NCBI GenBank assembly: GCA_964017195.1
Contig: OZ024898.1
Span: 8,941,130 to 9,005,129, forward strand
DNA length: 64,000 bases
Direction of reading: 5' to 3'
Origin: Siderastrea radians
Lineage: Eukaryota > Cnidaria > Anthozoa > Scleractinia > Rhizangiidae
This document shows, one piece after another, positions 1,781-64,000 of this stretch. How positions within the stretch are numbered: position 1 is the first letter of the stretch; every line of letters begins with the position of its first letter. The notes beneath the pieces were generated by a model. That model did not search any database, had not been told where the DNA came from, and saw only the letters and a list, made by a program, of their open reading frames with translations. Made by a program: the position numbers and the translations under genes.

Positions 1781-1957
1781 GCCAATGTCGAACACATCAA
1801 AGCTTGGAGTTCGTCCTTTGAGCAACTGAGCCGCAACGACTGAAAGCCCAGGAAAAATGTGGCAATTTTAAGAAATTCTATTATTTTGGCTTATCCTTAG
1901 CTTAACTTCCGCAATAAACTACCGCGACTGTTGAAGATAAAGAAATTTTTCTTGCAG

Positions 1958-1975
1958 GTACATCATTCAGTGAAG
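1958..1975 (+). promoter_or_regulatory. 5'-UTR part of the first coding exon, with upstream leader exon ending at 1068
   Basis: TTCTTGCAG at 1949-1957 is a good acceptor just before the start codon at 1976. The nearest strong donor upstream is TTG|GTAAGT at 1068/1069, so a leader exon ending at 1068 and an intron of about 0.9 kb are likely. The start codon was chosen because it opens the signal peptide. Confidence 0.45.
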
Positions 1976-4900
1976 ATGAAATTTTCAGGCATTTCTCTGA
2001 TTTTTGTACTGCTTTTCCTGACTGCTGTGTCGACTTCAGGTACGGTATAAGGAACATGGCTTTCCCGTTCCACTAACAACTATAAATAAAGTTTTTTTTG
2101 TCACGGTTTTTCTTTTCCATCTTTTTCTTCATTCAAGAAATCTCGCCTCACTGTAAACCAAAGTATTAAGACGATTTCCGCTCAACGTTCGAGCAGTAAG
2201 TGCAAAAATTAAGTTACCAAAAAAATACTTGCAGCACTGTCACATTTTGAGAACAGATAAGAAGAACTTATCGTTACTTTTGCTCCCAAGCTGACCCCGC
2301 GAGAGAAAATTGGATTTGAAGTTATCAATATTTCAATTAAAAAGACGCTTCATGTCAGTTCAAAACAAAATGGCGCCGTTTTTAGCATACTTTTACGAGA
2401 TTTGAAATTAATTTTCTTGAGAATGCTTGAGAATTTCATCGCGGGGTCACTTGGGCAAGTGAACTAGAGTGAGATGTTTCAAATAGCATTTAAAATGTTA
2501 CCGTGCTATGAGTAGTTCTTTGGTAAATATTTTTTGCACTTATTGCTCGAACGTTGAGCGGAATCCGTCTTAAACTTTTCTGTGGTAGTCGACCAGGAAT
2601 TTATGCGCTCATCGAGTGACAGCGTGAGGCTTGGGGCCAAACACGATAGGGTGACATCTTGGTGACGTCACGTTTTATATTCTGCAGAGGACGACTAGAA
2701 ACAAGGCTGGTAACAATTCTGGTTATCAACCCATATGTGCACCAAGAATAATAATATCCTGTCAATATCTTACCCTTATGTACTGACTTTTAACTTTCTT
2801 ATAGAAAAATACCTCACAAAATTGGGAAAATATTAATAGTACGGTCGAGTAGGGTGCAAAGAAAAAAGAATCAGTGACCTCTTACAATGTCGAATCAAGA
2901 CGGCCGGTGAATACATTGGCACCCTATGTGATAATACGCGCGGATATTTTAGGGGTTACGTAGATCTGTCCGAGGAACTGCAAATTTATAGCGAGCCGAA
3001 ACAAGTCAAGAAGCTGCGTCGGCAGTTCAAAGCTGTTTGGATAAAGTCCAGTTCTTCAACCGGCCGTCAATACTTTTTAAAATCTTTTCTTAAAAACTGG
3101 AAATGGACTTTTGAGACAACTTTTCAGCACCAATAGCCAAATGTGCGTATAGTCTCAACAAAACTTGCATCGAAATACTACAAACTAAAGGTGCATGAGT
3201 ATATGGCTTCAGTAAACGCCCCTTTAATTTGATGACCCCGAAATACGAAATAAATATTGTTTACGTTAACATGCAGCTTTTCTAAAATGCATTTCAGTGC
3301 CATTTAAAGGACAGCAAAAGCGGCATGGCATGACGAAGGACAGGCGATCAATGGGTTAGTTGAAACACTAACAATGAGAACAGAAACATCTGTTATCTGT
3401 TTTTTTTTTCCAAAAAATAGCAAATGTAGCTAGCATTTTCGTTTTTGTTGTTGTGGTTGTTGATCTTTTTCATCGCGTACTGCAAGCACATCCTGTTTTT
3501 ATGGCCGCGCAAAAATTGGGACGTGAACAACAAAATGGATTTAGAGGGAACAGGAAGGAGGAGAAGAGAAAAATCTCATAGGAGGGGTTGATCTTCCCAT
3601 CGGTCCTTTATAGTACAACTCTAAATTTTGGCGTGCTCCCATTGGTCGAAATCGCTCACGTGACGAGATGGTGTCTCTCCTCAGCGGGCCCCTAGCAGCG
3701 CATAGTGCTCGGTTTTAGCAATTTTCCCTCAAAGTTTAGCGTTGCACAATAAAAACAATAGAGACCTTCGGTCTCAGACCCTATGTGTGATTGGTTCCCT
3801 CGGAAATTTGATGCTCAAATGATCTAATAAACGCCCGGGGCGTCTATTTAATTTTAGGCGTCCTAGGGGGAGCGTTAAATAGATATGAGGCGTTTATAAG
3901 AGAGAGGCGTTTATTTCACTTTAACTGTAACAGCGTCAACAAAACACTTAAGACACGTAGTTTGCTTGCGGAGTAAGATAAAAAACAGAGTTTGTGAGTA
4001 GGAGACTAATCTAATCTGCGCTAGTAAATGCAAAGCGTAGAGAAGTCGTTCATAGTTCGATATCGATGTCTTCATCGTCATCGGAGTCGACCATGTTGGC
4101 ATCGTTGGCCTGTTCGATGTCCGAGTCAGTAATGGCCTGAAAAGGGTTTGGGACGTTGGACTCAACCAATGCGGAGAGTTGCGCTTGTAACTGCTCCGAT
4201 CCCACTTTACAAGGTTGGCCTTTCTTGAAGCAGTGAATCACTGAATCTTCAGTGCCATCAACTGCCAGCTTTAACGCACAGGACATGAAAGATTTTGCAA
4301 TCACATCCACAGAGAGCCGTGACAAGGCGGTTAATACCCATTCGACAACAGCCTTCCGTAATGGCGGTTTCCATGTTTCTGTATATTCTTGAACACCATT
4401 AGCCATCCATCCATCATACTGCTCGGCAACTAATGCCTTGAACGGTTTGTTCCCGCTTACGTCTGGCGCTTGTACATATTTTGTACAACCACCGGGGACT
4501 GTGGCCTGGTCAACGTTGATTCTGGCAAGCGCTTTCGTTAGGCAATTCTTGGGGGATGGGGGGAGGGGCGTTTACTAGAGGGGAGTGTCTAATACAAACT
4601 TTAAACCTCAGGGGGGGGGGTATTAGATACGAGGAGTTTATTTGAGAGTGGGCGTTTATAAGATCATTCAGTGTAAGCCCTCGAACTACATTCTCGGGCT
4701 AATATTTGTTGTGAACATCAAATTTCCTTGGGCAACCTATCACATGATAGTGGCTTCAACAGAAGAACTCTATTGTTTAAATAGTGAAGAAACAACTAGT
4801 CTTGGATGAGGAGCCCAATGAGGTTAACCGTTAGCCCTAAAACGGCCCAAAAAAATTAAACAATGGAAATTTCGGTTAACCGTTACTGAACGAAATTAAC

Positions 4901-7900
4901 CTTTGGCCGCAAAAAAGCCAACATTTAACCGTAAAGGCTACCACCCCAATGATTAAATGTCTAGCCAGCCGTCAGTAAACTTGGAAGAGGTAGGGAAGCG
5001 ATCCGCCCCCCTCCCCCCCCCCCCCAGCCTTGTATACCTCAGTGCTTTTAAACAGCTGGGAGACCTGACAGTCCCGGCAACCTTCTATAACCAAGAGTAC
5101 CTCCTAACTTTATTCGTGTTTCTTTCGAATTAATCATTAATCATATGCTTCTATTTTTGTTTTAGGACCCGAAATTGATAAAATATTGAAACCAATACAC
5201 GGTAAACGAAGGGCACTTAACTATTTTTACTGTTTTTTGGTTTGTTTTTGTTTGAGTTTTTTTTGTATCGATAATTTAATACCACCAGATCTCGACATAA
5301 TGTTTTCATGTTATTCCTCCGATATTTTTTTCATGAGGATTTACTTAATTCCAGGACAGGTAAAGAAAATTGGATGAGGTCGGTGGGTTTGAAACCCGCG
5401 ACCCTGGATTTTGATCACCGATGCTCTTAGCTGCTAAATTACTAGCCCAGACGGAAACAGGTCGTCGGTTTTCCTTATTCACTGAGGTCAAAGAAATTTT
5501 CTTTAACCTGTGTGGCCCACGCATCCTCACTAAGGCATCAATCAGAAGAAAAATTAATGGCCTCACTTCACATGGTACTTAGTGCTGTTCGGCACAAGGG
5601 TGAATCAGTTCAGTGAATTCCGACGTTGTTTTGCTGTTTAAAAAAATAAAAATAATTACTTAATTGACCCTCCCCGTAAGGGGTTTTTCAGGGACAATGA
5701 AATAAATAATATAAATGAACATAACAGCTTTAAGAACCCCAACTGGCGGGGAAGCAGACCAGGCGGCTATTTCAAGCGTGGCCGAGGAGTTGAACTCGGG
5801 GCTACCGAGAACAACTCCAGCTGGTGCTTAGAGCGGGACTTGAACCCAGGACCTCCAGATTCAAGTCCGGCGCCCGAACCGCTCGGCCACGCTGCCTCCC
5901 GATGTTGTTGGAACACTGCATCCGATTGCAATTTCATATCGACTTTGCTGGTGTCAAGGAGGGGAAGGTGGACGTCTGACCCAAACCTTTACGTTTGGGG
6001 AGCTTGACGAAATGTCGAAAGCCCGAGCTCGTTAGCGAACACCATAAATCAATCTCGTTCCCAGGGCCCCCTCTCTTTATCCCTTGAGAAAGGAATTTCG
6101 CGATAGATGAAAAGAAGGGGGACTGGGAACCTGGTCAGTGCTCTGGTGTATGTCAGATTCTTTACAATTAAGTTGATTTGTTTCAGATGGGCTAATCGGT
6201 ATGAACACAAAGATGGATTTGCTGGGAGCTACACTGGATAGTAAGCGAGCAAGATTTTTTTGCAAAGGTTATGACTATGGGGGAAAGGTAGATCTCAGCA
6301 ATGGTTACTGGAATCCAAAAAAAAAATATGGGTAACCATGCATTTTTCAGAGATAATTAAGCAAAATAAAATACAAAGAATGTATGGAATTTCTTTTCAA
6401 ATTTAAGCTCAATTATTTCGGAAAAATCGTGGTTAACCCCAATTTTCTTTTTGGATTCTGATAGCCCTTGCTAAGACCTGCTTTTTCCACGTAGTCACAA
6501 ACTGCGCAAAAATATTGTTGTATTAGGGGGGCAAATTCCTTAATAAGAAACCCGAATATCCCGAGATGCGCAGAACGTATGCGCAGTAACAAAAGGAGGC
6601 ACCGTCCATAATTCCGTGGATATGGTTACAAATGCAAAACATAGGGATACAGAATCATCTGTATCCCTATTTTTTGCGTTATTGTACGTCATGTCCGCTC
6701 CTCCCGTTAAATCAATTGCGTATTGCGACATTCTCTATTTATATAATATTGTAATTCCATTTTATAATTTAGTATCATCTTAAAACTGAAGAACTAAGGC
6801 TGGTTTGGCCATCCGAAATATTGTTTAAAATCAGGAGGCATAATCGGTACACTGATGCACGTTGTACCGGCATGGCAGTACTCCTTGGACTTCCTCGTGT
6901 CATTTTATTTCAATTTTAGCTGATTAGATCTCTCCCGGGATGCAACATTTACGACTAGAAGGATCTTCGTCTATGTTTTTTTTGTTTTTTGTTTTTTTTG
7001 CAGAGTTTAGTAAAGATTCGTTTAAAAAGGTTGGTTTTGGATTATATGACTCATAAAGCTTACAAACATCATTTGTTTCAGCGATAACCTCGAAGTTAAA
7101 AGAAATGAAAGGGGCAAAACAAAGGTATCACCAGGGTAAGCGAAACAATCTTGTTTTATTATTTACATTCCTTAGTAGCAAAACATAACCAAAACTTCCT
7201 AAACACCCCTCCTTCCTGCACTCACATTCATTCATTCATTCATTCATTTATTCATTCATTCATTCATTCATTCATTCATTCATTCATTCATTCATTCATT
7301 CATTCATTCATTCATTCATTCATTCATTCATTCATTCATTCATTCATTCGTTGTATAGCAAGGACGCCAACGTATCGGATCCTGGTGGATCTAGTCAGCA
7401 AATTTTTTGGGGGGCTGACTGTACAGCTATGAGAATGTATATATATTCTTCCAAAATATATTTCGTCAGGCACGGCCCGAAGAAGTCATTCCCTAAAGAA
7501 GTCAGAACATTTATTCGCCCCTTCGTTTGTTCGTTCGTTTGTTCATTCATTCGTTTGTTCGTTCGTTAGCGAAGGCTCGAGTTTTATCTGAAGCACTGAT
7601 GAGAAGCTTGTCGTTAGTGACTGTGCTGTACGAGCGAGTGTCAATATTCTATTAGTCCAGTTGTCATGGGTATACTTTTTTAAAAAAATAGCTGAAATAC
7701 AGTTTTAATCTCTGTAAAGTTCATTAGGATGGATAACACAAATTTATAGGCCTCAAGAACAGATACTTCGCCTTACAATCCAGTATATGCCCTCACGCTT
7801 TACAAGTTACTGGAATCATGAACCAGACGGCAGCCGGAGTTTTCCGTCGGGTAACACCATTAATGTACGGGCAAAACTCTGAAACCTAGTATTTTTGACG

Positions 7901-7987
7901 CTAACTTAAAACTCTCTTGTTTCAGCTTTATTCGATCATTTGGGGCAGATGGTGCTGGAACTAGACAAACGCCTGACTGACGCCTGA
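1976..7987 (+). CDS. Small secreted cysteine-free peptide, 7 coding exons, all introns phase 1
   Basis: Coding exons read by eye: 1976-2039, 3298-3354, 5166-5201, 6187-6240, 7004-7033, 7082-7135, 7926-7987 (stop TGA). Every junction has an AG acceptor and GT donor and every intron is phase 1, so the chain gives one open frame of about 118 residues. Residues 1-21 (MKFSGISLIFVLLFLTAVST...) are a clear signal peptide. The rest is cysteine-free and rich in Lys, Asp and Leu, with amphipathic helical spacing (EIDKILKPIH, KMDLLGATLD, ALFDHLGQMVLELDKRL) and dibasic sites KR and RR early in the mature part. The donor of exon 5 (TTG|GTTTTG) is weak; a better-looking donor four bases upstream breaks the frame. 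Because exons are symmetric, any could be skipped. I do not recognise the family. A non-coding leader exon ending at 1068 (TTG|GTAAGT) and a 3'-UTR exon are listed separately. Confidence 0.62.
2166..2573. mobile_element. 400-bp MITE flanked by TTAA
   Basis: Inverted termini of more than 40 bases: the left end begins GACGATTTCCGCTCAACGTT after TTAA at 2166-2169, and the right end is its near-perfect reverse complement before TTAA at 2570-2573. The TTAA duplication is typical of piggyBac-like and some other DNA transposons. There is no coding capacity. It sits in the first coding intron of the secreted-peptide gene. Confidence 0.8.
3830..4690 (-). mobile_element. Degenerate pogo/Tigger-like element with GGCGTTTAT-rich ends
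   Basis: A transposase relic (next entry) is bracketed by blocks of the repeated word GGCGTTTAT and variants: on the left at 3832-3920 and on the right at 4560-4665. A non-coding relative of the same end sequence is at 8965-9212. Exact termini and target duplication are not clear. Confidence 0.6.
4050..4557 (-). pseudogene. Pogo-type transposase, C-terminal fragment
   Basis: Reading right to left from about 4557, one open frame of about 169 codons ends at 4050. It includes INVDQATVPGGCTKYVQAPD, then KPFKALVAEQYD, then a helical stretch with WVLTALSRLSVDVIAKSF and SCALKLAVDGTEDSVIHCF, and an acidic tail ending DDDEDIDIEL. This is the layout of the DDE-domain C-terminus of pogo/Tigger/jerky transposases, in which a conserved 'VQ..D...NKPFK' stretch precedes a helical tail. 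The DNA-binding N-terminus and the first catalytic acidic residues are absent, so this copy is dead. It lies in an intron of the secreted-peptide gene, antisense to it. Confidence 0.7.
5345..5560 (-). repeat. tRNA-like SINE fragment
   Basis: On the minus strand, CTGGGCTAGTAATTTAGCAG is followed by a B-box-like GGGTTTCAAACCC, resembling a tRNA A-box/B-box pair. No cloverleaf with a proper acceptor stem can be drawn. It overlaps an intron of the secreted-peptide gene. Confidence 0.35.
5660..5905 (-). repeat. tRNA-Leu/Ser-type SINE
   Basis: On the minus strand the element starts near 5900 with GGAGGCAGCGTGGCCGAGCG, a type-II tRNA head with A-box TGGCCGAGCGG and B-box GGGTTCAAGTCCC. A body with a second head-like CTCGGCCACGC follows, and the tail runs through CCCCTTACGGGGAGGGTCAA to about 5660. 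A relative lies at 25264-25525. It sits in intron 3 of the secreted-peptide gene, antisense. Confidence 0.75.
6615..6700. repeat. Short fold-back with a 20-bp near-perfect stem and 4-base loop
   Basis: GCAAAACATAGGGATACAGA at 6634-6653 pairs with the stretch at 6658-6677 across the loop ATCA, with one mismatch; weaker pairing extends outward to about 6617 and 6700. It lies in intron 4 of the secreted-peptide gene. It could be a tiny MITE or a hairpin RNA precursor; the sequence alone does not decide. Confidence 0.6.
7225..7349. repeat. (ATTC)n microsatellite, about 31 units
   Basis: An almost uninterrupted run of ATTC with one variant unit near 7248. A related degenerate stretch with GTTCGTTCGTTTGTTC follows at about 7523-7567. 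It lies in the last coding intron of the secreted-peptide gene. Confidence 0.97.
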
Positions 7988-8964
7988 AGGTAAGCGGAAC
8001 AGTTCTATCTGATTTTCCTTCGTTGTGAATATCATAAACGAATAACAAGAGAACCATAACCGCAAAAATGGGTTCTTGATGGTGTACTGTTGTCTCTCTC
8101 TCACTGAAAGTAAAGGAAAAGCCCTGGGCAGTCGAGGTTACTTCAACAGCTGCAAACCTTTGAGTTTAAAGAGTTGAAAAAGTATTGATACAAAATATTA
8201 TAAAATCAGCCACAAACAAAGAAAACACGTTAACGTGTTCCCGGCCGGAGCTCAAACCCGGGCTATCGTTCCATAGGCATAATACATCAGTCGTTTCCAG
8301 AAGTGGTAAGCCCCCTCGGACAATCGCAGGACAAAAGCATCAGTCAAACCCAGGGCATCTGAGGGCCTCATAGTTTCGCTTCACAGATCTGTGCCTTTAT
8401 TTCCAGTGCAGAGCTTATCAGCGAAAGCAATAGATTTGTGACCAACTTACCCTAAAGAATTATAACAAAATGGAAGATTTTGAAGTATGTAGATAAGCTC
8501 AGGGCAACGTCCTGAACGTCTGGCATTTGACCAGTCCGTTGTTCTCCATCTTGGAGCATTATTATTTGGCTGACGCATACTTGAATGAGACTGGGGCGGA
8601 TCTACAGTAGAGGTGGCTCAGCGGTCGAACCCCCTAAACTGAATCATAAATGTCTTAAACTGTGAAACTTGAATTCATTAATAAATATACAATCTTTTAA
8701 AAATATATGCCTTTGTCTCTAGTGAACATGAAAAAAAAAACACATAAAAATATAATAAGAAACGCCCCCACCCAGAGCAAATGCCTACAGCAAATACAAA
8801 TAAATGACTACAATTTCCAGGTTTAGTTTCAATACTAAAATGTTCTCGATTAAATAAATGTAAATATTTTAAGTCCTTTTTTTCAACTAGTTAGCGCAAA
8901 ACTAAGATGATTTCAAAGCAATTAAACCACTTCAATTACCTCTCAGAACGCTGAAATCGGGCCC

Positions 8965-9212
8965 CGAATAAACGCCGGGTATCAACGACGGAAACGTAAA
9001 TAAGCCTCTCAGACGTTTATTTGTTGTGTCATAAACTTAAGATTTAAGGGCAAAATACACGGCTGCCAAAAAAAAAAAACAACAAATAATAACCCTTTCT
9101 TAAATAATGGCGGGCCTAAACAAACTGCTGATTCCAACAAACGCCGGGTCCACCATGCCAAGTTTGAAATAAACGCTGGGGACGTTTAATTGAGAAAATA
9201 CGGTACTCACGT
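8965..9212. mobile_element. Non-autonomous relative of the pogo-like element
   Basis: Contains repeated AATAAACGCCGGG, ACGTTTATTTG and AAATAAACGCTGGGGACGTTT words matching those flanking the transposase relic near 3.8-4.7 kb. No coding capacity. Boundaries are approximate. Confidence 0.5.
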
Positions 9213-9329
9213 TTGTCATTTAGAATATGGATTAAAAGGGGGTCACCGTTCTCGAGTAGGAGAAAATGATCATTTATCTCGGTGAACATATCATTTTTAA
9301 AGAAATAAACATCCAAGTTTTGAACGTGT

Positions 9330-9408
9330 GCGTGCTCGTGCACGCGCTAATGACGCAAAAAAGTTATGCGCAGAAAGGATGTGCAATGTAATTGACTAGA
9401 GTCACCTT
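9330..9408 (-). repeat. Copy of the GGTGATTC repeat end
   Basis: On the minus strand this reads GGTGACTCTAG, then ATTGCACATCCTTTCTGCGC, then TTTTTTGCGTCATTAGCGCG, matching the stretch at 51905-51985 with few changes. It is one end of a dispersed element. Confidence 0.6.
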
Positions 9409-9476
9409 CAAGTCCAAAATTTTGAAACGAAAAATAAAATCGGTGTTTTTGGCACTTTCTCTTTTCTTTCTTTCAG

Positions 9477-9655
9477 TCGGTATAACCAACCAACATATTT
9501 CCATCCACTTCACGAGCTGGCTGTCTTTCCCTGAAGAAGAGCATTGGTTCTGTCTGGTCGCATAACAATAATGAATATATCATGTGAAAAGAGAGGTGAA
9601 ATTCCTCAAAATGTAACAAGTTAATTGCAAATAAAGTGACTTATAATTAGATTTA
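9477..9655 (+). other. Probable 3'-UTR exon with AATAAA signal of the secreted-peptide gene
   Basis: Two bases after the TGA stop there is a strong donor (TGAAG|GTAAGC at 7989/7990). A polypyrimidine tract and acceptor (CTTTCTTTCAG) end at 9476, and AATAAA lies at 9630-9635. This fits an intron in the 3'-UTR and a terminal exon of about 180 bases. It contains no coding sequence. Confidence 0.45.
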
Positions 9656-43243: not shown

Positions 43244-46200
43244 ACATATTTAAAACACTTCGACTTATCACTCGGCAGCCTTGTTTTAAACAGAACAGAA
43301 TCTGCCCTATACTGGGTCCTCATCAATGGCATGTACCCATACACTTCCACAAAAAAGTTAATGCACTTGCTTCGCTCTTCGAAGTGTGTTTTATCATTCC
43401 AGAGCGACACAGGGCAGTTTGGACATGAGAAGGTCCAACGGGACGTCACCTAGGAAAGAAAAATACTCAGTTTGACTGAAAAGGACTAACAAAGCATTTT
43501 AAGCCAAAAGCAATATAAATAAATAACTAGTAAGTGGAATGATGACTTGGATTAAAGGAAATAGGATGAAGAATGGCTCTCAAGCCAAATTTTGCTCAGA
43601 AAAAATTTCTGTGTTCTTCCAATGGGAGTCAAATCCATGGTCTTCCTGGGACAGTTGGATGCTTTACTACTGAGCTATGGGGGACTCATGTTGAGCAAGG
43701 CCATACAACTACTGAAGGTTCAGATGTGAGACATGCCTGCCAGACTACAGGCTCAACAATGTCAAGAATAAAGTGAGGAATGAATAAAAGAAAAGTGGAA
43801 TAGCAACTTGGATGCAATGAAATAAATGAAGACGTGCTCTCAAGTTAAATTTTACTTAATAATAGGAGAAAACCTAAGTCCTCCTGGCAGGCGGCGAAGC
43901 CATGACTTTCCAGGCACAGGCTGGATGCTCTACCACTGAGTCATAGGGGACTCATGATGAGCAAGGCTAAGGTCGCCATTGGGAGGACTCAGAATATTTT
44001 TCTGGATTACAGGTTCCATTACTGAGGACATTCGGCTACAATCTCTGACAAAATGGTTCTCTCCAAGATTGTAGTAAGTTTAAAAGTTAGTACAGTCTCA
44101 AGCCCTACAGTTACGGACAGATCTAGACCTGGGGTCATCAGTTCTTTTTACCCTACCTTGTGAGCAGAGGCCCTCCGATCTTCCTAGATAAGTCGGGAAG
44201 AGGAAGGGACCTCTGCCAGCCACCTTGACTTTCCCTGTTGAGCATGCGCTAAATTCAAATGTAACCGAGCCTTGTCGGCCTCGCTTCAAACACGTTTACT
44301 GAATGACAGCCGCGTCCACAACAAACTATTCTGACTTCGGTCGTAACACAAGAGAGTTGAGGAAAGCTTTTATTAAACCGTAAGGCTGAGTATAATTCTG
44401 TTCGAATTTATGTCATAGGTTGAAAACTTATCAGCCTCGAAATATTTTTCCTGATCAAGAAACTGCGATTTGTCGACTGTCAACATGTTGTTACAGTCCA
44501 GTGATTTCCAATTAGCGGGTCACAGAAGTCTTGCATAGAAATCTTGGTCTTCGAGATATTTATTTTACTTTGTCCCTCTTTCTGTCCCTGTCATTCAGAA
44601 GTATTTTCGTGTTGAGTCTCTTTCGTCCTCAACATTCTCCGCTTTCATTCAACAAAACGCATTTGTGTCGAGTTTGTTTCGTATTCAAACTTCTCGGCCA
44701 CCATGAGGTAAATTATATTTTGTACTGAGACCGTTTCGTCTTCAAAATTACCAGCCGCCAGTCGGCAGATAGTTGTTTCTCTTGTCATTTGCTTGTCTTG
44801 CCGTTGAGCAAAATAAATGTCATTTCGCCATAAAAATAAGCGTTGAAGTGCACATTCGAGTAGACCTTCGCATTGATTCTCGCTCAAACCAGAAGTAAAA
44901 TTTTTGGTCTGAAAGCAACTGCAACCCAGATTCTTCAGTTCCAGTTGGTAAATTAACGATTTGCCATAGCCGGTTGGCAAACAGACAAAAGAATCTTTAC
45001 CACACAGAAAATTAAGCAAGGCTTTCAACTGGTGTTGTGTGAGATTGCTTATTCCATGAGTACCGGTATTCACTCTTCCCAGTGCACTTTTCACGGCTTT
45101 ATCGAAGACATCCTTCGAAAGAGAAACGTCCACTGTTGTGAACTTCGCACCGAACGTACCGTGGGCACGTATTTCGTCAGCAATTTCTAACAAAGCACAT
45201 GCACACTCGCAAAAATGGGAAAAACTGGTTACAAACCGGACTGACTCATCCGTTTCAGTGGATGAGAAAGTTGAGGCGGCTGGCAGAGGTCCCTTCCTCT
45301 TCCCGACTTATCTAGGAAGATCAAAGGGCCTCTGCTCGCAGGGTATTTTTACCCTTGCAATAGGTCCATTCCCAAGGTCCTGCAGAGACAAGCCCTGTTA
45401 AGAACCCTGTGTTAGCAATAACACTATTATATTATTATTACCTTGAGAGGAGGTTTCCGTGTGATGTGGGAAACTAAAAAGTTCATGGCAATATCCTCAC
45501 AGTTCATATACTCATCTACTTTGTCTCTTATCACTTGTGGCATCCAGTGCATGTATAAATATGCAAAGTACTACAAAGAGGAAAACAATAATTATTTCAA
45601 ACAAAACCTTGGCATATTTAGATTAGGCACTACATTCCACATTATTTAACTACACATAGCTGCAATTCTTTCCCAGGGGAAGGGGGTACTATCTTATGTA
45701 GCCTATATGGGAAGGTGCCTTTGGATAGCGTATGGTTTTTGGCCATCTTAAAAAGGGTCTCACTCTGAAACTGTTCCAAACGGGGTACGGTTGCACGACT
45801 GCTGTCATTAAATAATTATGGTTTATACAGTATCAGGAACACAATCCTTGATCAGAGAATGATGTGCTGTTCTTCAAAACACTTGAAAATTGTGTAAAAC
45901 AAGAGTGTGTATTTTGTCCTTTGCCATAAACAGGGTCATAAAATAGAGTGTTGCCCTGCACACGGTAGGTTTTTTGGTCTTCTTTGTCCTAAACAGGGGT
46001 CAGGATTTCGACCCTCAGCAGCATCCCTATAACCAAACATGGGGTCAAGTGCCTCTCCTCCTGGGGTTCTTTCAACCCCCTAGGGACTCTGACAATTGGG
46101 TAACACTGAACTGTTAAGGAAAGCTACAAAAACCAAACTGACCCCATCAAGGGGGCCAGTTGTAATAGTCCCATGGACATGTAGACAATTATTATGTTCC

Positions 46201-49200
46201 AGCAGTTACAGGACACCTTAAGATGAGTAAAGAATTTACCCTAAGTCACCATGCCAAAATGATGGAAAACATCACTCATCCACTCATCACATATATCTGA
46301 GATCAAAAGTAAACACCTCACCTTATGGTAGAAAGCTGCACCAGTTAAAATCATGGACAGCTCACATGAATACTCCGAACTATACAGCCACTGACTGTTC
46401 TTTGCATCCCATGCATGGAATCTTCCAGGAAATCCCACAATGCGATCTTTGTTTTCTCGCCAAACTCTGGATACCAAAAACAAAATAATTATTGTAGCAC
46501 AAACTTGATACACCGAACCATTGCTTCTCAAACCATTTGTTTCATGGCCGGGGTCTCAGAGAATTCTATAAGAGAGGTAGACTAACACACATTATTAAAT
46601 GCCTTCATGATTGTTTTTAAGCATTCCTATTGAGATATTAGCAACATAATGGTCTCATGTTGGAGCTCAAGCTCATGATTCTGCCTGTTATGTCACTAGT
46701 GAGAACCATGCTTAACCTGTAGTTTAGACCCCAGTGTCAGCATATAAATTCTGCTTACTGGTTGCCATACATTTGTTGTAGTGCTAGTTGGGAGAAGTTG
46801 TTCAAATATCAGAAAAGTTCATCCCTGGTGATCATTTCCTCAATTCTCCACACCTGTGCACTTAATTGCGCATTGATGTTACAAGGAGAAATATGATGCT
46901 GATCACTATTGGGGTTTAAAGGGTTAATAACTAGTAAATAATTTACTAATTAATTAGTTAATAATTTTTCTAATTATTAGAAAAATAATAAGGTGTAAAA
47001 ACTTTCTTGGGAATACCTGAATGCCAGTAGAATTTCATCATGTCGCATTTCCACATCATCATCAATAGCAAATACTGCATCAGTATCAATAACATCGTAA
47101 GGAATGAAACGGTTATTTAAACTGTTCTGTGTTACTTTCACCACCTGTAGATAATGGTAAAGAACAGCAAGACAAACTTGAAAATACCATACTACCAAAT
47201 AAGCGTTAAGGGAAACACACTCATTATCAAGCCTTTCACCATGGGGTAAAATTCTCAAATTCTCAAATCTTTCAAACTTTGGTGCCCCTTTGGATTCAAA
47301 CTCCTGTGCCTTCTCAATTGAGCCATGTGAAAGTTACAAATTTAAGGAGTCAATTCAGGTTTGAATTACCATGGCTCCAGAGGTCTGTTATCTAAATATC
47401 TCGAGCGAAATAAACCGTCTTCAGGGTTGTAAAAGCTCCCAAGACAGACCTCTGGTCACTAAAATACACAACTTTATTTCCATGCAAGAGATTAATTCAG
47501 GATTTGAATAAGTTCACTGATTGGTTACTCCTACTCATTTCTAGACTGTACCAGAAGTTAACAATGCAACAACAGCTTTGATTGAATAGACCGAAATATG
47601 TCCCCACAATGACCCAATCCAAATCCTGAATTAATGTCTCGCGTGAAAATGAAGTTGCACACTCGAGTGACCAGAGGTTTTTCTCTCTGTGCTTTGCACC
47701 TCATTGTTGTGGCTTCGCTGGTTTTAACTAAAAAAAAACCTCTGGCACCAAGGGTACATTTGAATGTGATGTCACAAAATCCAGGATGGCTGCCTTGGTC
47801 GATCGAACAGTGTCAGGCCCTTTTTTGAGGGAAAACGTTTTTGAACCAAGCCCAATAATAATCTTATAACACACTTGTAGTGCACAGAGTTCTATGCAAT
47901 GTTCACTTAGCCAAGTAATAAAATAACAAATGAAACAGAAAAACAAATAATTAACAAGCTTAATAAATGAGCTACAGCTGTAGTGTAAATCATCTCAGTT
48001 CTGTTATTTTCAGTCACATGATGGGATGTGAATCTGGTGTATTTTACTCGAAAAATAGTGAAAATGACCCAATTTAAAGGGCATATATACCCTTAGTAAC
48101 ACTCACAAAGTGGCTCCTAATAGCTCGATTACAGTACTGTTGAGTAACCAATAAGTACATCAAACTATCGACCTGGAATTTGACAGCTCATGTGCCGAGA
48201 GATAAGCTTACCATTTGCAGGAAAAGTCATTTTTGGGGGAGACATGTTATCCTCCTGGCCAAAACGACTCCCCACAGGGCCCTCACATCAAATCAGAATT
48301 GCTTCACAAGGTGACAATTTTGAGTGGTCAGGGTCAAGTGAGGTCTGGAACCAATGCAGCCATTTTGAATGGGAGGTCTGGGACTGAGAAACGTTCAGAA
48401 ACCATTCATGATTGTACAGTGTAGTAAAATGACAAGGGATGAAAATGGAAGGAGAGACCTTCGAAAATCAAGGAATAACATATTAGCTAAGTCTACTTTG
48501 TAATTTCGAAGTATCCGAACCACCAGTTTGGCCTCATGGTTTCTTTGTTCCAGACCTCACTCTATCTGATCGCTTACAAATTATTCAAAATGGCTGTCGC
48601 TTAATATGCAAAAGACACAGAGAGAACAATTTGAGGAGAAGGCTCCCTGTGACTCCCCTAATAATGTGTGAGGCTCGGATGATCAGTGTGGTGAGGGATT
48701 TTCACTGAATGTCAAAAGTTATTTGTGATTGCTTTGATTTTTTTGCTTCACTATAATTATACTCTTTGATTGAGTCCAAAAGCTTGTGTCACATTTTCAA
48801 CCAATTCAAAGTAAAACTAAAACCAAAGTCACGTGACTTCACACAAGTTCTCTAATGCTTAACACCATTTACATGCCTGCCTTTTAAATGCTTAACACCA
48901 TCTAAACACGTGCAGTGGTTGTATTTGTCTGGACTCTTGTTCTGGATTTATGACATTCAAATCATGCTTAGCATTTTCAACTAGTTTTCCAACATCAGCA
49001 TACCAATAAAAGCTCCATACAGGTATTGGTTAAAATACACAACTTACATGAACTGGAACTCCAATATCAGGCCATCTAAGAGACAAAGAAGGAGGCTCAG
49101 GGCTGTTCCAAACAACCACCACTTTGTTGAGGTATTGTAACCCAACAAGACGCTGAATTGCTTCCATAAGGACCAGTTCTCTCTCATATGTTAAGATGAC

Positions 49201-51123
49201 AATCGTGAACTGCTCCATGGGGTAATTCCCACCCAAAGCTTTACTGAACTCTGCTCCAGCGCCGCCCGCACCCTCACCGATGAGCTCAAACCCTTTACTG
49301 GAGTTCTTGAAAGGAGCTGATGACGGTAGCACAGGATCAAAGGGGGAGCTTGGATACATTAGAAATGAACCCGGGGGAGAATTCCATAGATTATACATAT
49401 CCACTACAGTTGACGTTAAATTCCTGGTAAATGTTGGAGATTCTTGGGGTAGTCCAATCACGGCATCTGGATCCGGTGAACTTGTCAATGGTGGTCTAGA
49501 ATCAGAGAAGACTGATGGCGATGGTGATGCAGGAACATGATGAGGAGGAATTGATAATCGTGTTCTTATAGTAGCTAGCACTGTTGTTAACATAGCATTA
49601 GTTGTTGAAAGATATGTTTCCCATAAGAATCTACCCTGTCGACGCATTACAAGTATATCTTCACTTGTGATCGTTCGGAGTAAGACATTTAATTCAGGAA
49701 GACGAGCTGGTGATAGGATAATTGCAGCCTTGTGCCAGTCAATCACATCATTAAAAGGAAGAACTGTTCTGCTGGATAATATTACTGGTATAGCACCAAA
49801 TTGTAAAGCTTCAAGAAGTCGGATGTGACTAGGATCCCAGCTGGAGCTGAGACTGTTTGATCCTAATATTAAAGTAAACGTCGATTGTTTAACAATGTTT
49901 GTTCTGTTTTCATATTTTCCCCATAACAACCATTCACTGCTTTCCTTTGAGTCTGAGGAGTCAGATTTAGATAAATATAATTCTATGAAGAAGTCACTAG
50001 CTTCCCGTGAAAGCTCATTTAGTTGATCACGTAGAATTCCCATTTTTTCAGTGAGACGAGTAGCATGCTCGGCTTGAAAACTCATTAAGTGTTTTCTTCT
50101 TGCTGGAAGTTGCAAGGCAGCGAGTTTCCATACTTCTCCCTTTAAAGGCCCATTTGAAGGTGGTAATGCAATATCAAAGCCATGGCGAAAACTTGTACCT
50201 TCTGAAAATGTTGACTGTGCAATTAAGGCAAATCCTGTGTTAATATTTAAAGTTGAAAAACTAGATAAGTGCTTTTCTCCTCTTTTTGAGTGTAGAATCA
50301 AATGATTTCTTCCATTCCCTCCCCAGTAAGGTAAAGCATGCAATTCTGACTCAAACTCTGAGTTACTTTTCTGTTGCTCAATTCCTTCTGTGGACCCAAC
50401 AATAACTATAAACAAACAGGCTTTATCTGCTTCAGAAGTATAATGGGGCATTCCCTTCAACAACTGCCAGATAGCTATGGTTTCGGAGTCAAATGTCCGT
50501 TGTCCTAAGGGGCACTCATACACATACACAAGAAAGCCCGAACTGAACGAGCATCTTGAAAAATCAAAACAGTTGTGTAATTGGCAGTTTGAGGAAGTTC
50601 TCCTGTGTGGCAATGGACTAACGTCACTCGCAGATGACACGATAAGTTTTTGTGGCAATTTTAAATGTGGCAATTGTGGACAGTCATTTGCTCGCTGTTT
50701 GGCAAGTTTAATTAGTTCAAGCTCCCTTTGTGCACGGACCACATCAGCATGATAATGCTCAGCTTGAGTTCGTGATCCATCTGCCTTTTTAGCAAAAGAG
50801 GAAATATCTTTCAGAAGTCTACTCTTTCTGCCCTCCAATTCTCTTAACTCATTTGTCAGTGACAATTTAATTCTCTGGAGTTCCTCAACTTGAAATTTTA
50901 AATCTTCGATACTGTCCAATAGCAAATCCTCTTTGCCAACGGGTCTGTCTAACTTCGATCTCGATTGAAAGTGCTCGATTGGAGTTTTTTCTGAAGGCAT
51001 AGCGTGTTTCCCTAGATAATAATGAGTAATTAAAGGCACGACGAGTGCAAATACCAGAAGAAAAGCAATGAGTCGCCCGAGCGACGTATCTTTCCTGAGT
51101 TTGTACACCAATATATGCATCAT
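43240..51123 (-). CDS. EXTL3: Exostosin-like 3, alpha-1,4-N-acetylglucosaminyltransferase, 895 aa, 5 coding exons
   Basis: Exons in transcript order: 51123-49048, 47144-47017, 46466-46322, 45570-45442, 43449-43240; phases agree and the frame closes at TAA. The family starts and influences elongation of heparan sulfate chains, as a type II Golgi/ER membrane protein. Visible parts: a short cytosolic end, a signal anchor near 18-38 ([20 protein letters not shown]), coiled coil near 60-140, an exostosin (GT47-like) domain about 190-560, a Pro/Ser linker, then the GT64 domain from about 650 with [32 protein letters not shown], the metal-binding DDD at about 720-722 ([13 protein letters not shown]) and CPNCPVSLW near the end. 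Human EXTL3 has 919 residues, so this is full length. The coiled coil before the exostosin domain separates EXTL3 from EXT1, EXT2 and EXTL2. The large first exon holding three quarters of the protein fits the family. Confidence 0.94.
43540..43705 (-). repeat. tRNA-derived SINE in EXTL3 intron 4, copy A
   Basis: On the minus strand GAGTCCCCCATAGCTCAGTA and B-box-like GGATTTGACTCCC are followed by a body with CAAATTTGGCTTGAGAGCC. A tandem relative follows at 43800-43965. Confidence 0.65.
43800..43965 (-). repeat. tRNA-derived SINE in EXTL3 intron 4, copy B
   Basis: On the minus strand GAGTCCCCTATGACTCAGTG, then GTAGAGCATCCAGCC, then a body with AAATTTAACTTGAGAGC. Same orientation and family as copy A. 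Confidence 0.65.
44158..45348 (-). mobile_element. Inverted-repeat element carrying a RecQ-like helicase fragment
   Basis: About 80-bp inverted repeats: left 44158-44240, right 45265-45348. The shared core is ATCTTCCTAGATAAGTCGGG followed by AAGAGGAAGGGACCTCTGCC, near-identical in opposite orientation. The interior is dominated by the helicase fragment below. The whole unit sits in EXTL3 intron 4. No transposase is visible, so it is non-autonomous or decayed. Confidence 0.75.
44645..45193 (-). pseudogene. RecQ-type ATP-dependent helicase fragment
   Basis: A 182-codon frame has [20 protein letters not shown] followed by [13 protein letters not shown], the region before and including the Walker A motif (PTGYGKS) of RecQ-family helicases. 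After LIYQ the sequence leaves the family, as if an intron boundary had been read through. No DEAH box or later helicase motif is present. The frame stays open upstream of the first ATG toward 45265. It is a captured piece, not a working helicase; transcription cannot be judged. Confidence 0.7.
45670..46070 (+). repeat. Dispersed repeat with CCTAAACAGGG words, copy 2
   Basis: TTGTCCTAAACAGGGGTCAGG, CATAAACAGGGTCATA and GGGTCAAGTGCCTC match, in opposite orientation, the repeat at 22505-22935. It lies in EXTL3 intron 3. Confidence 0.6.
46800..46926. mobile_element. TTAACCCTTTAA-type MITE, rearranged partial copy 5
   Basis: The right end CTATTGGGGTTTAAAGGGTTAA is intact. GGTGATCATTTCCTC inside is the reverse complement of the family's GATCACC segment, so the left part is inverted or recombined. 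EXTL3 intron 2. Confidence 0.55.
47480..47645. repeat. Fold-back with ATTAATTCAGGATTTG arms
   Basis: GAGATTAATTCAGGATTTGAA on the left and TCCAAATCCTGAATTAATGT on the right are inverted. It lies in EXTL3 intron 1. Confidence 0.65.
47650..49040. other. EXTL3 intron 1, remaining part
   Basis: No exon or coding frame was found. The segment at 48190-48430 has repeat-like character, but no second copy was located in this window. Confidence 0.5.
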
Positions 51124-51899
51124 GCCAAGAAATTATTTCTTCCTCCAAGGCCCAACAAAATGTGCTGTCGATACCAAGAAGAAATATTGCTTCCAAAAAA
51201 ACGTCATTAAAGAACGAGCTTTCCGTAAGATGATCCAAATTGTTTGCCAGAAATTTGATATTCCGGAAACATTGACGCGCGATTTACATGAGTTGAAAGA
51301 ATAGAAAGTCTTGATGACGGGTTATGAAGATCTCCGAAGTGAATTATTTTGTCAATTGTCCATTGGATACATAACTCTGCTCCTTTGATTGAAATATAGT
51401 CGAGTTCCCTTTCCAAAACGATGTAAAGTCCCTAGCATGTTGTAGAAATCATTCCCAAACCGCACATGAGAAATTCAACAGCGGTGTCCGATTAAAATGG
51501 AAAGATTCTAGACGTCTCCCGTATCTGATAATCCTCGCAGAACATCCAGTCACTTCACTACTAAGTTAAAATCATGTTCTGTATGATATAGAGGGATTTA
51601 GCGAAGGCTAGACGATAAACAGAACCGGTATAAACAAAAAAGCAGCCACCAGCCGTAAATTTTCAAAATAGCGCGGACCGTGGAAGACGTGATCTGACGG
51701 GTCGGGAGAGACTCGGGCGAATGACATTTGTCATACCGGAAGTCATAGTACCAGCACCGGAAAGGCAAGCAGTAATGAGTAATTTTCTATTTTTTCTTAC
51801 TTCCTCATCGGATCTCCCATTTTCAGGTAATAAAGTCAATCGACGTGTTTTAAATACGCCATAACGAAATTAGTCAGAGGAATAAAAAGCGAAACAGAG

Positions 51900-60469: not shown

Positions 60470-63190
60470 TCTTTCCTATCTTTCTTCTTATCCTATGTTT
60501 CTTTCATTAACAAGTAAGAAACAATATAGAACGCGTGGAGTGCAAGTTAGATTATACTGAAAAAGTTAAGGCAGCGAACTTTCAAATCAACCTGTATTCA
60601 AGGTCGGGATAGGGATGGATTTGGGATTTCAGACTTACAGGCACATGAGTTAACTCCACGAATGCTTTGCAGTCTGGAGAACATTGGGTTATGAGTTCAT
60701 GTGTTGTGTACTGAAATCTTCCTGCTCGATACATCGAAATACAAGAGTAGAGACCTCCAATCCACTCAGAAACAATGATATGACCCTTACAATAAACCTT
60801 GAGGTCTTAGTTTTTGTGGGGCTATGGCCTTTATCGTACCAACCTATTCCAAAATGGGGGACCTTACAAAATCACAACGACGAGGACAAAGAGCACGTCG
60901 CTGAACAAAAGTCTTAGGGTGTCAACGTGCGATAACCATTTTGGTACAAAAAAAGCAATTCTTTGTCGTCGCCTGCGAAGTAACAACATGGGCGGAAATG
61001 ACCAAATTCTGGGGGTTTGGGGGAACAAATAAACAGAATAAACACGCGATGGTATGAAACTCGAAGAAATTAACTTGGTCACTTTATTTAATCAATTTGT
61101 TACATTTTGAGGGTTTTTACATTCCCTTAATGTTGCTTGGCCAAATTTTTCCAATTAACAGCTTCTGAAAAGGCGGCATGTTAACGAAATGGAACTTGTA
61201 TTGGTTTTCCTGAAAAGAAGAAAGCATATTAGACCACAGTGACCATATTCAAATTTTCCTACCTTTTTAACGTTTTTTCTTTCAGTTTCAAGGGGGGATT
61301 GTTCTCGTCTTTGTGTGTGCCTCAGTTTGTTCAGGGGTATGTTTGTTTTTCACTTTGAGAAACAGAATAAAAATTTCTAATTTTGCCTTTGCGTTATATT
61401 TGTGGGTAAGGAATTTTTGTGGTGGACGTTTTTTTCGGGGGGGGAGGGGGGCGCTGGTTGAGGGAGGGGGTGAGTTGGGCTCATTTTTTTGGAAGGGGGT
61501 CTTCAGTTTCGAAGGTAGGGCTTTCGTAAGTAATTAATGTTAGTAACAATTTATACTTAAACGTTTATACTGTAATCATCCCGGTAATTTATTAACTTCG
61601 ATTTAAGCCTTGTTTAAACCGTGTTTCTTTTGACTTTGATTAATTTTGTTTGTATAGTTATTAGTAACTTAGTAATTTAAGTAATTGTTCCTGACAAGCC
61701 CCATTGTGGAGGTAACAATAAAGTATGTATGTGTATGTATGTATGTATGTATGTAACCTTAATGTTCGTGAAAATGTTTCTGCGTGAGTTTTATGGGAGC
61801 GGGTGAGCGGGAGAAGTTTTCTTGAGGGTATTACATTTTAAGGCAAAGGGACAGCATTTTTTAGACGTTTAGGACATATTGTAACTCGAAATCAACGAAA
61901 CCTAATGGAAAACAAAATTGTCTCCTTTACCACTGCGATGTTGTTCAAGCATCGTCTTGACATTAAGCGGTATACCTGAAACAGGTGTCCTTTGTTAGTT
62001 TCAAGACAATATCAAACCGTTTTCGCGTTTCTTTTGACTTTGTAACACGAGATGAAAGTGTGATAATGTATTTACAGTCTGTAGTCAGTCTGTACTAACA
62101 GTAAGTAGTGCAAAACAAACTTGCATTGGTTGAGGAGTATCAATTTAAAATTATATTTTAAATCGTTATTTTTTAAAGTTCATCAAGATTAAACATTATT
62201 TTGAAGTATTTAAATTCAAGTCAATCAAAAATTTAATTTCTCTGGCTTACCCCCAACGAGTTTCAGTATTTGGTCACCTTGTTCTGAAACAAAACAAAAA
62301 GCAACAAAAAGATATAATATTTTAGTTCAAAAACAAGTTCTCCTGATGATAAAGACCTGGACCTAAAACTAACAAGATTTAACTCTTCCTCATGGTCGGG
62401 TAACGTGGGCTCGTTTTTTAGAGCTCAACTTAGTGTTATCTTTTTATTGGCGATTTCAAAAAATACACCTTTTCTGGAGTGAGCTTCTCCTTTAACCAAA
62501 AGCAAGAGTCGATTTTTCCAGATCGAAAGGGTTTGGTGCACATGCGTTTGCCATACCCCCTGGCAATCTCGTTCTCAGGATCTTTGGGTTAGCCAATCCA
62601 AGATGGCGGCGATTCAGGAGTCAGGCCAAAGAGTCCCTGCCTTAGTTCCCGCCAAGTTTGATTGCCAAAGAAAGACCCTGGGAACGAGGTTGGGCCCCTG
62701 GATATGAATAAACCTGCTCTGATTGGTTCCCTTCTAATAGGCCACCAGCTCTTGCAGTTTGCCACTAAATTTTCTCCGTGTTGCATTTGTTTAAATTGCA
62801 CGCATGACGCAATAGTGTTTCCTCATGCAGGATTTACCGACAGGAAATATCGCACATCCAGCGAAAAAACCCGGATCGAGAGCATGAATATGCAAAGCAA
62901 AGTTTACTTTAAAGTAGAGTTCCTTATTTATATTTTCGCTTTTTTCTTCTATTTTTCTTTGTTTTCCTTTTCCTCTTTTCCTTTTCTGTTTTAACAAAAA
63001 CGTTTCTTTGAAAAAATTCCACTTATGACACCGTCGTACAGAAACCCCATAGCCATCATATCAACCGTATGTACAATTCGATTTCGCGAAATTTTGGTTC
63101 ACTACATAAGGCTTTTTGTCTTCTCCGTGTCGAATGAACAACCTCGTGATCTTTGTGATGTACTAAGAAAATGGTCTCGCTGTTTCACCC
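60470..63190. other. Right-hand intergenic region, no gene seen
   Basis: AT-rich sequence with a G-rich block at 61436-61500, a TATG microsatellite at 61723-61755 and a repeat fragment with CTGGGAACGAGGTTGGGCCC at 62560-62700. No coding frame shows recognisable motifs. Confidence 0.5.
61723..61755. repeat. (TATG)n microsatellite
   Basis: About eight units of TATG with one GTG interruption. Confidence 0.92.
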
Positions 63191-63692: not shown

Positions 63693-64000
63693 GGCTTACT
63701 TTTCAAAGCATCCAGCGAGGCTTGAAACTGCTGTACTCCTCCACCTTAACAAGGAATATGACTTAGGTTCTGTAGCTACGAGAACTAAACTAAAATACCA
63801 GACAGTACAGAATGTCGTCGTGGATTTCAGCGATTTCCTTACCCATGCCCAGAGAACGGGTTTTCCTCGTCATGCCAACGTTTTGCTGTCGTTTGAATGG
63901 AACAACTGAATAAAATAAGCCAAGCAAATTTGCATTAGCAACACTGAACGGCAACAAGCTGTAACAACCTTTATTTAACAAATATTTCACAACTCACAAA

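Follow-up and report, generated by a model that had tools for sequence, protein, structure and literature searches.

A candidate family of secreted, cysteine-free peptides encoded by small phase-1 exons in the coral Siderastrea radians

Introduction

The closest described systems to the genes considered here are the micro-exon genes (MEGs) of schistosomes, the bicycle genes of aphids and the SA8 toxin genes of sea anemones. Bicycle proteins have a signal peptide, and their CYC motif holds cysteines. The genes that encode them are described, in the available part of the source, as highly divergent and as containing many small internal exons, nearly all of which start at codon position 2 (PMC9168663). 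MEGs, according to the available parts of two accounts, combine a conserved signal peptide and mostly very small symmetric coding exons with a faster-evolving mature part and duplicated families (PMC10526429, PMC4350168), and in one of these accounts they appear restricted to platyhelminths (PMC4350168). The subject here is a 64,000-nucleotide stretch of the 805-Mb genome of the coral Siderastrea radians, hereafter the window (contig OZ024898.1, termed C12, positions 8941130-9005129), whose plus strand holds gene W (window 1958-9655, untranslated parts included) and whose right end holds most of a second gene, V, on the minus strand. W and V probably belong to a lineage-specific family whose secreted peptides are encoded by micro-exons. 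Coordinates are those of the window unless a contig is named.

The splice pattern of V

The V protein (92 aa, six coding exons) was predicted from the genomic letters alone, before any database match. When five family proteins, that of V included, were aligned and searched together against the protein database, 344 candidates were obtained and two proteins were returned, P0121 (expect value (E) 8e-27) and P0122 (E 0.014). P0121, a 111-aa protein with 3 member sequences from a JGI source, the longest contig being 2184 nt, is identical to the predicted V protein at 89 of 92 residues in an ungapped alignment, and ahead of it carries the residues YQPIR, which are read from the 5' untranslated region (5'UTR) part of V exon 1. 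Since the coding exons of V span about 3.6 kb in the genome, an unbroken frame of 111 aa within a contig of 2184 nt points to spliced RNA or to a processed copy. The match supports the predicted splice pattern, and V is probably expressed. Every predicted coding exon is included in P0121, with no sign of exon skipping, while P0122, from an ENA contig, is an unspliced read-through of V exon 1.

The coding part of V exon 1 (C12:9005802-9005865) lies about 700 bases beyond the right edge of the window, and the remaining exons follow on the minus strand: exon 2 (63843-63905, 63 nt, VVPFKRQQNVGMTRKTRSLGM), exon 3 (63700-63744, 45 nt, GGGVQQFQASLDALK), exon 4 (62251-62283, 33 nt, KQGDQILKLVG) and exon 5 (61931-61975, 45 nt, GIPLNVKTMLEQHRS), all in phase 1 and all confirmed within P0121, with one residue differing in each of exons 3 and 5. 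The last exon (61070-61209, far end approximate) encodes GKPIQVPFR, likewise confirmed, followed by TAA, a 3'UTR and AATAAA at 61088-61083. No 5'UTR exon of V was found in the roughly 2.6 kb upstream.

The original prediction, which dealt with W, had made its gene depend on a homologous signal-peptide protein in related species, and the family-alignment search found such a homologue in the database. The library holds sequence of the organism itself or of a near relative, since an exostosin-3-like open reading frame (ORF) of the window finds a 98% identical protein in it. That prediction had not noticed the gene family, V as its second member within the window, the non-coding exons or the weak standing of one W exon, discussed below.

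Seven family loci

With exon 1 of the family copy B2 as a DNA query, six genomic places were found, and a 35-base exon-1 pattern allowing up to three mismatches found seven, with 0 and 0 in the backward control. Three of these are on C12, namely U (8934333), W (8943105, plus strand) and V (9005865, minus strand, three mismatches), U and W standing in tandem and V at the window's right end. The other four are on a second contig, C14: A1 (9222675), B1 (9234017), A2 (9378825) and B2 (9390425). These C14 copies lie in a repeated block (C14:9217918-9284343 and C14:9374080-9427074) whose long pieces are mostly 95-99% identical, and the A1/B1 and A2/B2 blocks, which reflect either segmental duplication in the recent past or a haplotig in the assembly, are not counted as independent.

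Exactly 5000 N occupy C12:8936130-8941129, directly before the window, and hide the later exons of U. The sequence at 101-1790, 5' of W, is repeated upstream of U (67-2261 of the extracted locus L009) at 75-82% identity, which points to tandem duplication of the gene unit. Exon 2 is 57 nt in W, 72 nt in U, 57 nt in A1 and B1, and 63 nt in V, and U also has a 36-nt candidate counterpart of W exon 3, predicted from splice sites.

No further locus emerged convincingly when W, V and B1 were used as protein queries. With as many as two mismatches allowed, a pattern for exon 2 matched at 17 places in the forward and 33 in the reverse direction, compared with 14 and 13 in the controls; these include all seven known copies, and several of the others are near-identical and look like dispersed repeats. 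Of the remainder, one match with a single mismatch, on contig C5 (locus L043, C5:38574100-38574899), was inspected: it is similar to the beginning of W exon 2 but has an acceptor of -6.6 and no donor above 0 within 110 bases and is not an exon; by eye, its upstream bases resemble window 1815-1900, and the stretch is perhaps a dispersed fragment. A 13-bit model match in locus L013 was also rejected, having by eye no frame like that of exon 1.

Exon size, phase and symmetry

The models of the seven loci contain 32 internal coding exons, 27-72 nt long and in phase 1, of which 31 have a length divisible by three, a count that omits the originally proposed exon 5 of W, the last coding exons and exon 7 of A1 and A2. 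The sole departure is exon 6 of A2 (38 nt), which is frameshifted relative to A1. Internal exons of the family thus begin at codon position 2.

An A1/B1 alignment was scanned for stretches of 18-120 nt, in multiples of three, that keep both splice sites and an open frame in both copies. At a threshold of 2, five phase-1 candidates were returned (exons 2-6, exon 6 being doubtful), with one in phase 0, none in phase 2 and none on the reverse strand. The phase-0 candidate is the position of exon 7 read in the wrong frame, phase 1 there running to a stop at the end in A1; at a threshold of 0, phase 0 has two candidates. A duplication relating exons 4 and 5 of B1 was considered and found no support, their 12 identities in 33 positions being matched by 3623 of 20000 shuffles.

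Symmetric exons are an established feature of shuffled extracellular modules, and the original prediction had read the gene in that light. The symmetric phase-1 architecture holds, but each exon is far below domain size, which makes micro-exon genes the better comparison.

Conservation and rates of change

Exons 3-5 of A1 and B1 change faster than their own introns, with mismatches at 37 of 108 positions compared with 162 of 966 in the 200-base flanks (Fisher 3.7e-5). The comparison covered exons 1-5 and 7; exon 7, taken unpooled, goes in the same direction (11/45 mismatches compared with 54/348 in its flanks), whereas exon 1 (9/61) and exon 2 (8/57) change no faster than their flanks (0.195 and 0.189). 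The signal-peptide exon is accordingly better conserved than the mature part in the A1/B1 pair, as it is between W and U.

Between V and B1, the proportion of synonymous sites changed (pS 0.59) exceeds that of non-synonymous sites (pN 0.35; Fisher 0.0024 on rounded counts), as is expected of real proteins, in a comparison whose exon pairs V4-B5 and V5-B7 were chosen by similarity and in whose later exons synonymous change has reached saturation.

Gene W

All seven exons first proposed for W are present and form one open frame, joining without a break into 118 codons and TGA; the five internal ones measure 57, 36, 54, 30 and 54 nt, all in phase 1, and the protein read from this frame is cysteine-free. 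W is very probably a real gene, with corrections to the bounds of exons 1 and 7 and to the standing of exon 5. Exon 1 had been taken to follow an AG directly at 1976, but that position is the ATG, and the conserved acceptor (TTGCAG) lies at 1957/1958, so that the exon spans 1958-2039 and holds 18 nt of 5'UTR before the signal-peptide sequence MKFSGISLIFVLLFLTAVSTS. This acceptor is kept in five aligned family copies and is likewise present in V, which indicates that a non-coding 5' exon precedes; the ATG, frame and donor GT are also conserved in the paralogues. Exon 2 (3298-3354, 57 nt, phase 1) encodes a basic, Q-rich segment ending in KDRRSM, a putative propeptide, and has paralogue support. 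So does exon 3 (5166-5201, 36 nt, phase 1, GPEIDKILKPIH), around which window 5156-5241 matches B1 at C14:9239141-9239225, the surroundings of B1 exon 4 (E 2.6e-6).

Further along, exon 4 (6187-6240, 54 nt, phase 1) is supported by its splice sites (sum 5.8) and open frame, and exon 6 (7082-7135, 54 nt, phase 1) has strong sites (sum 9.2). Exon 7 (7926-7989), the last coding exon, runs 2 nt beyond its stop (TGA, 7985-7987) to a donor of 7.1 bits (TGAAG/GTAAGC), and the placing of the stop just ahead of a donor is shared with exon 7 of the paralogue A1. The originally proposed exon 5 (7004-7033, 30 nt) fares worse. On a generic matrix its donor, GTTG/GTTTTG, scores -7.3 bits, compared with +0.5 to +5.5 bits for the other five W donors; a better alternative at 7029/7030 (1.7) breaks the frame; and in a tblastn search its peptide matches the C14 copies only weakly (E 0.15 and 0.21), at places whose edges, by eye, are without AG and GT. 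Exon 5 is regarded as unsupported and is probably unused in splicing, and the W protein predicted without it has 108 aa.

The 3'UTR exon (9477-9655, far end approximate) has an acceptor of 7.5 bits and AATAAA at 9630-9635. By local comparison, its segment 9596-9640 is 84% identical over 45 nt to the last exon of V (61120-61078, E 6e-7), and it matches the 3' exon of B1 weakly (E 0.058); a genome-wide DNA search with the W 3' exon returned the self-match only. A tblastn search with exon peptides, alongside the comparison with V, gave no match. Within the intron between exons 2 and 3, a 173-aa ORF lies on the minus strand (4050-4571), which has no Pfam match and is perhaps a mobile-element remnant.

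W might instead be a decaying tandem pseudogene, its later exons chance matches to splice signals, with V and the C14 genes the working members. This explanation fits the failure of W to find a protein match, its one doubtful exon (exon 5) and the lack of a counterpart found in paralogues for exons 4, 6 and 7, as well as the occurrence of candidate exons elsewhere: at a threshold of 5, the W span (5.96 kb, plus strand) holds three phase-1 candidates, two stretches open in phase 2, none in phase 0 and none on its minus strand, and the remaining 50.9 kb of the window holds five phase-1 candidates on the plus strand and six on the minus strand. Against decay, the signal, second and third exons of W stay in frame, the stop is placed as in A1, the end of the 3'UTR exon is conserved in V, and a helical moment is kept in the mature part (see below). 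Between W and U, exon 1 is identical at 58 of 64 positions and exon 2 at 50 of its first 57, with a ratio of non-synonymous to synonymous change (dN/dS) of 0.46 over the two exons. The 36-nt third exon, in U a splice-site prediction, is identical at only 14 of 36 positions, while the intron ahead of it retains a 74% alignment as far as window 5129. A pseudogene is an unlikely account of W, though the most serious of the alternatives considered.

The predicted product

The W protein starts with a hydrophobic, signal-like segment, and cysteines number 0 in all seven predicted proteins, of which those of U, A1 and A2 are incomplete. An arginine stands near the end of exon 2 at a putative cut site: KDRR/S in W, RKTR/S in V, KGRR/S in U and ETR/S in B1. 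The mean 11-residue hydrophobic moment of the mature part, calculated at eight angles, is largest at 100 degrees for three proteins (W, B1, A1) and at 110 degrees for V, and the 100-degree value was reached by 36 (W), 46 (V), 4 (B1) and 34 (A1) of 2000 shuffles each. Low-confidence helices in a single-sequence AlphaFold2 model of P0121 (24-39, 63-86 and 93-101) fall in the signal and mature parts. The product is likely a signal peptide followed by a basic propeptide and an amphipathic helical peptide. The proposal first made for W is supported in part: its product is secreted-looking and cysteine-free, probably helical and possibly processed, and the variable isoforms that it also suggested are hypothetical. 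That prediction recognized no family, and the protein matches no known one in the libraries searched (Pfam, PDB and the protein database); no convincing relative was found in PDB (best E 0.016 and 0.053) or Pfam (best E 0.024), and these weak matches are taken as chance.

A typical cnidarian gene for a venom or antimicrobial peptide would also show a signal, a putative propeptide and a short mature part, in clustered and diversifying duplicates, and the SA8 toxin genes, in the available part of their description, have 3-5 microexons (PMC10210398). Toxins of the SA8 and ShK type are framed by cysteines, however, whereas the proteins predicted here have none, and the Pfam and PDB searches offered no convincing relative. 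This explanation is accordingly rated somewhat below that of a pseudogene, though a cysteine-free, membrane-active amphipathic peptide is possible. Neuropeptide precursors carry an amidation and dibasic signal (GRR or GKR), often repeated. A neuropeptide or hormone precursor whose peptides are freed by dibasic cleavage would suit the signal-like start, the small size and the basic sites that exon 2 encodes (W has KR and RR, U has KGRR). It is nevertheless the least probable of the three, since by inspection the members neither repeat a peptide unit nor share an amidation signal (GRR occurs only in U), and exons 3-5 of A1 and B1 outpace their introns, unlike a conserved ligand.

A proposed mechanism

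The splice pattern of V, the conservation of the signal exon, of exon 2 and of both untranslated ends, the phase-1 symmetry, the lack of cysteine and the rapid divergence of A1/B1 exons 3-5 relative to their introns suggest how a family of secreted micro-exon peptides could work. Exon 1 would direct secretion, and exon 2 would encode a basic propeptide that is removed near the conserved arginine. Each later symmetric micro-exon would contribute a single short stretch of amphipathic helix, some 11-20 residues long, and whenever an exon is gained, lost, replaced or skipped the helix could become longer or shorter or present different faces without a frameshift. The flexible peptide released would have its length and faces set by the micro-exon set of its gene, perhaps with a choice among isoforms, and we infer that it probably binds membranes or a fast-changing extracellular partner such as a microbe, symbiont, prey or mucus. 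It is tentatively proposed, as a possibility held with less confidence than the family itself, that anthozoans evolved such a family independently of flatworms and aphids, with selection acting exon by exon: the signal and propeptide exons would be kept, and the later micro-exons, each one amphipathic helical segment, replaced, added, diversified and perhaps skipped.

Several observations weigh against the family explanation and its mechanism. The regularity of exon length is partly built in, as the exon scans considered multiples of three alone; V is excepted, since its chain is confirmed by P0121. Exon 6 of the C14 copies has a weak donor, and its frameshift in A2 counts against a need for it. 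The dN/dS of 1.74 in A1/B1 exons 3-5 does not differ significantly from neutrality (Fisher 0.45), and the near-identical pairs are uninformative, B1/B2 differing by one synonymous and one non-synonymous change and A1/A2 by none and one. Searched alone against 5.8 billion proteins, W gave 2 candidates, neither with an E as low as 10. For W exons 4, 6 and 7 the support consists of splice sites, frame and modest density only, and tblastn and local DNA comparison found no paralogue counterparts for them. The signal peptide was judged by inspection and the mature start chosen by eye; the helix tests are not independent, A1 and B1 being related; and the AlphaFold2 model of P0121 is weak, with a mean predicted local distance difference test score (pLDDT) of 59 and a predicted template modelling score (pTM) of 0.23.

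Other features of the window

The exostosin-3-like ORF mentioned above (49030-51132, minus strand, 700 aa) has Exostosin GT47 and GT64 domains; among the 120 matches listed, which reach 98% identity, the first named by organism is from the octocoral Paramuricea clavata (42%), below those higher matches. A 220-aa ORF at 44645-45307 (minus strand) has a weak DEAD/DEAH helicase match that falls below the Pfam cut-off.

Comparison with known systems

Among the papers listed by literature searches that included few subscription journals, none has a title or abstract opening that describes such a family in corals. Lineage-specific, fast-evolving gene families have been reported, in the available part of the source, from the coral Montipora (PMC9145168). 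Genes with tiny exons go unnoticed by ordinary gene prediction and by similarity searches, and such families may be widely missed in animals.

Among anthozoan genes, those of the SA8 toxins are similar in being clustered and in having 3-5 microexons (PMC10210398, in the part available), but their products have ShK-like cysteine spacing and those of the coral family are cysteine-free. Like the coral genes, aphid bicycle genes encode a signal peptide. They also share the small internal exons, the starts at codon position 2 and the strong divergence of sequence (PMC9168663, in the part available); they differ in their CYC motif, which the coral family lacks along with any cysteine, and in exon number, with a mean of about 17 and a minimum of 5 in that source and fewer in the coral genes. 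As far as the available accounts go, schistosome MEGs share small multiple-of-three exons, a conserved signal exon, a faster mature part and duplicated copies, and differ in that the coral exons are larger (27-72 nt, compared with mostly 15 bp) and fewer (5-8 coding exons, compared with 10-20), and in that the one spliced coral sequence gives no sign of skipping. The Pfam, PDB and protein searches, in which no database relative beyond the family itself was convincing, showed no sequence relation to MEGs, whose sequences were not aligned directly. Since it lacks CYC motifs and gave no sign of kinship with MEGs at the sequence level, the family is filed as neither bicycle nor MEG. It resembles both in gene structure and, as a case beyond parasites and gall insects, it would offer a test of this layout as a general solution for fast-changing secreted peptides and of the exon as the unit of their diversification.

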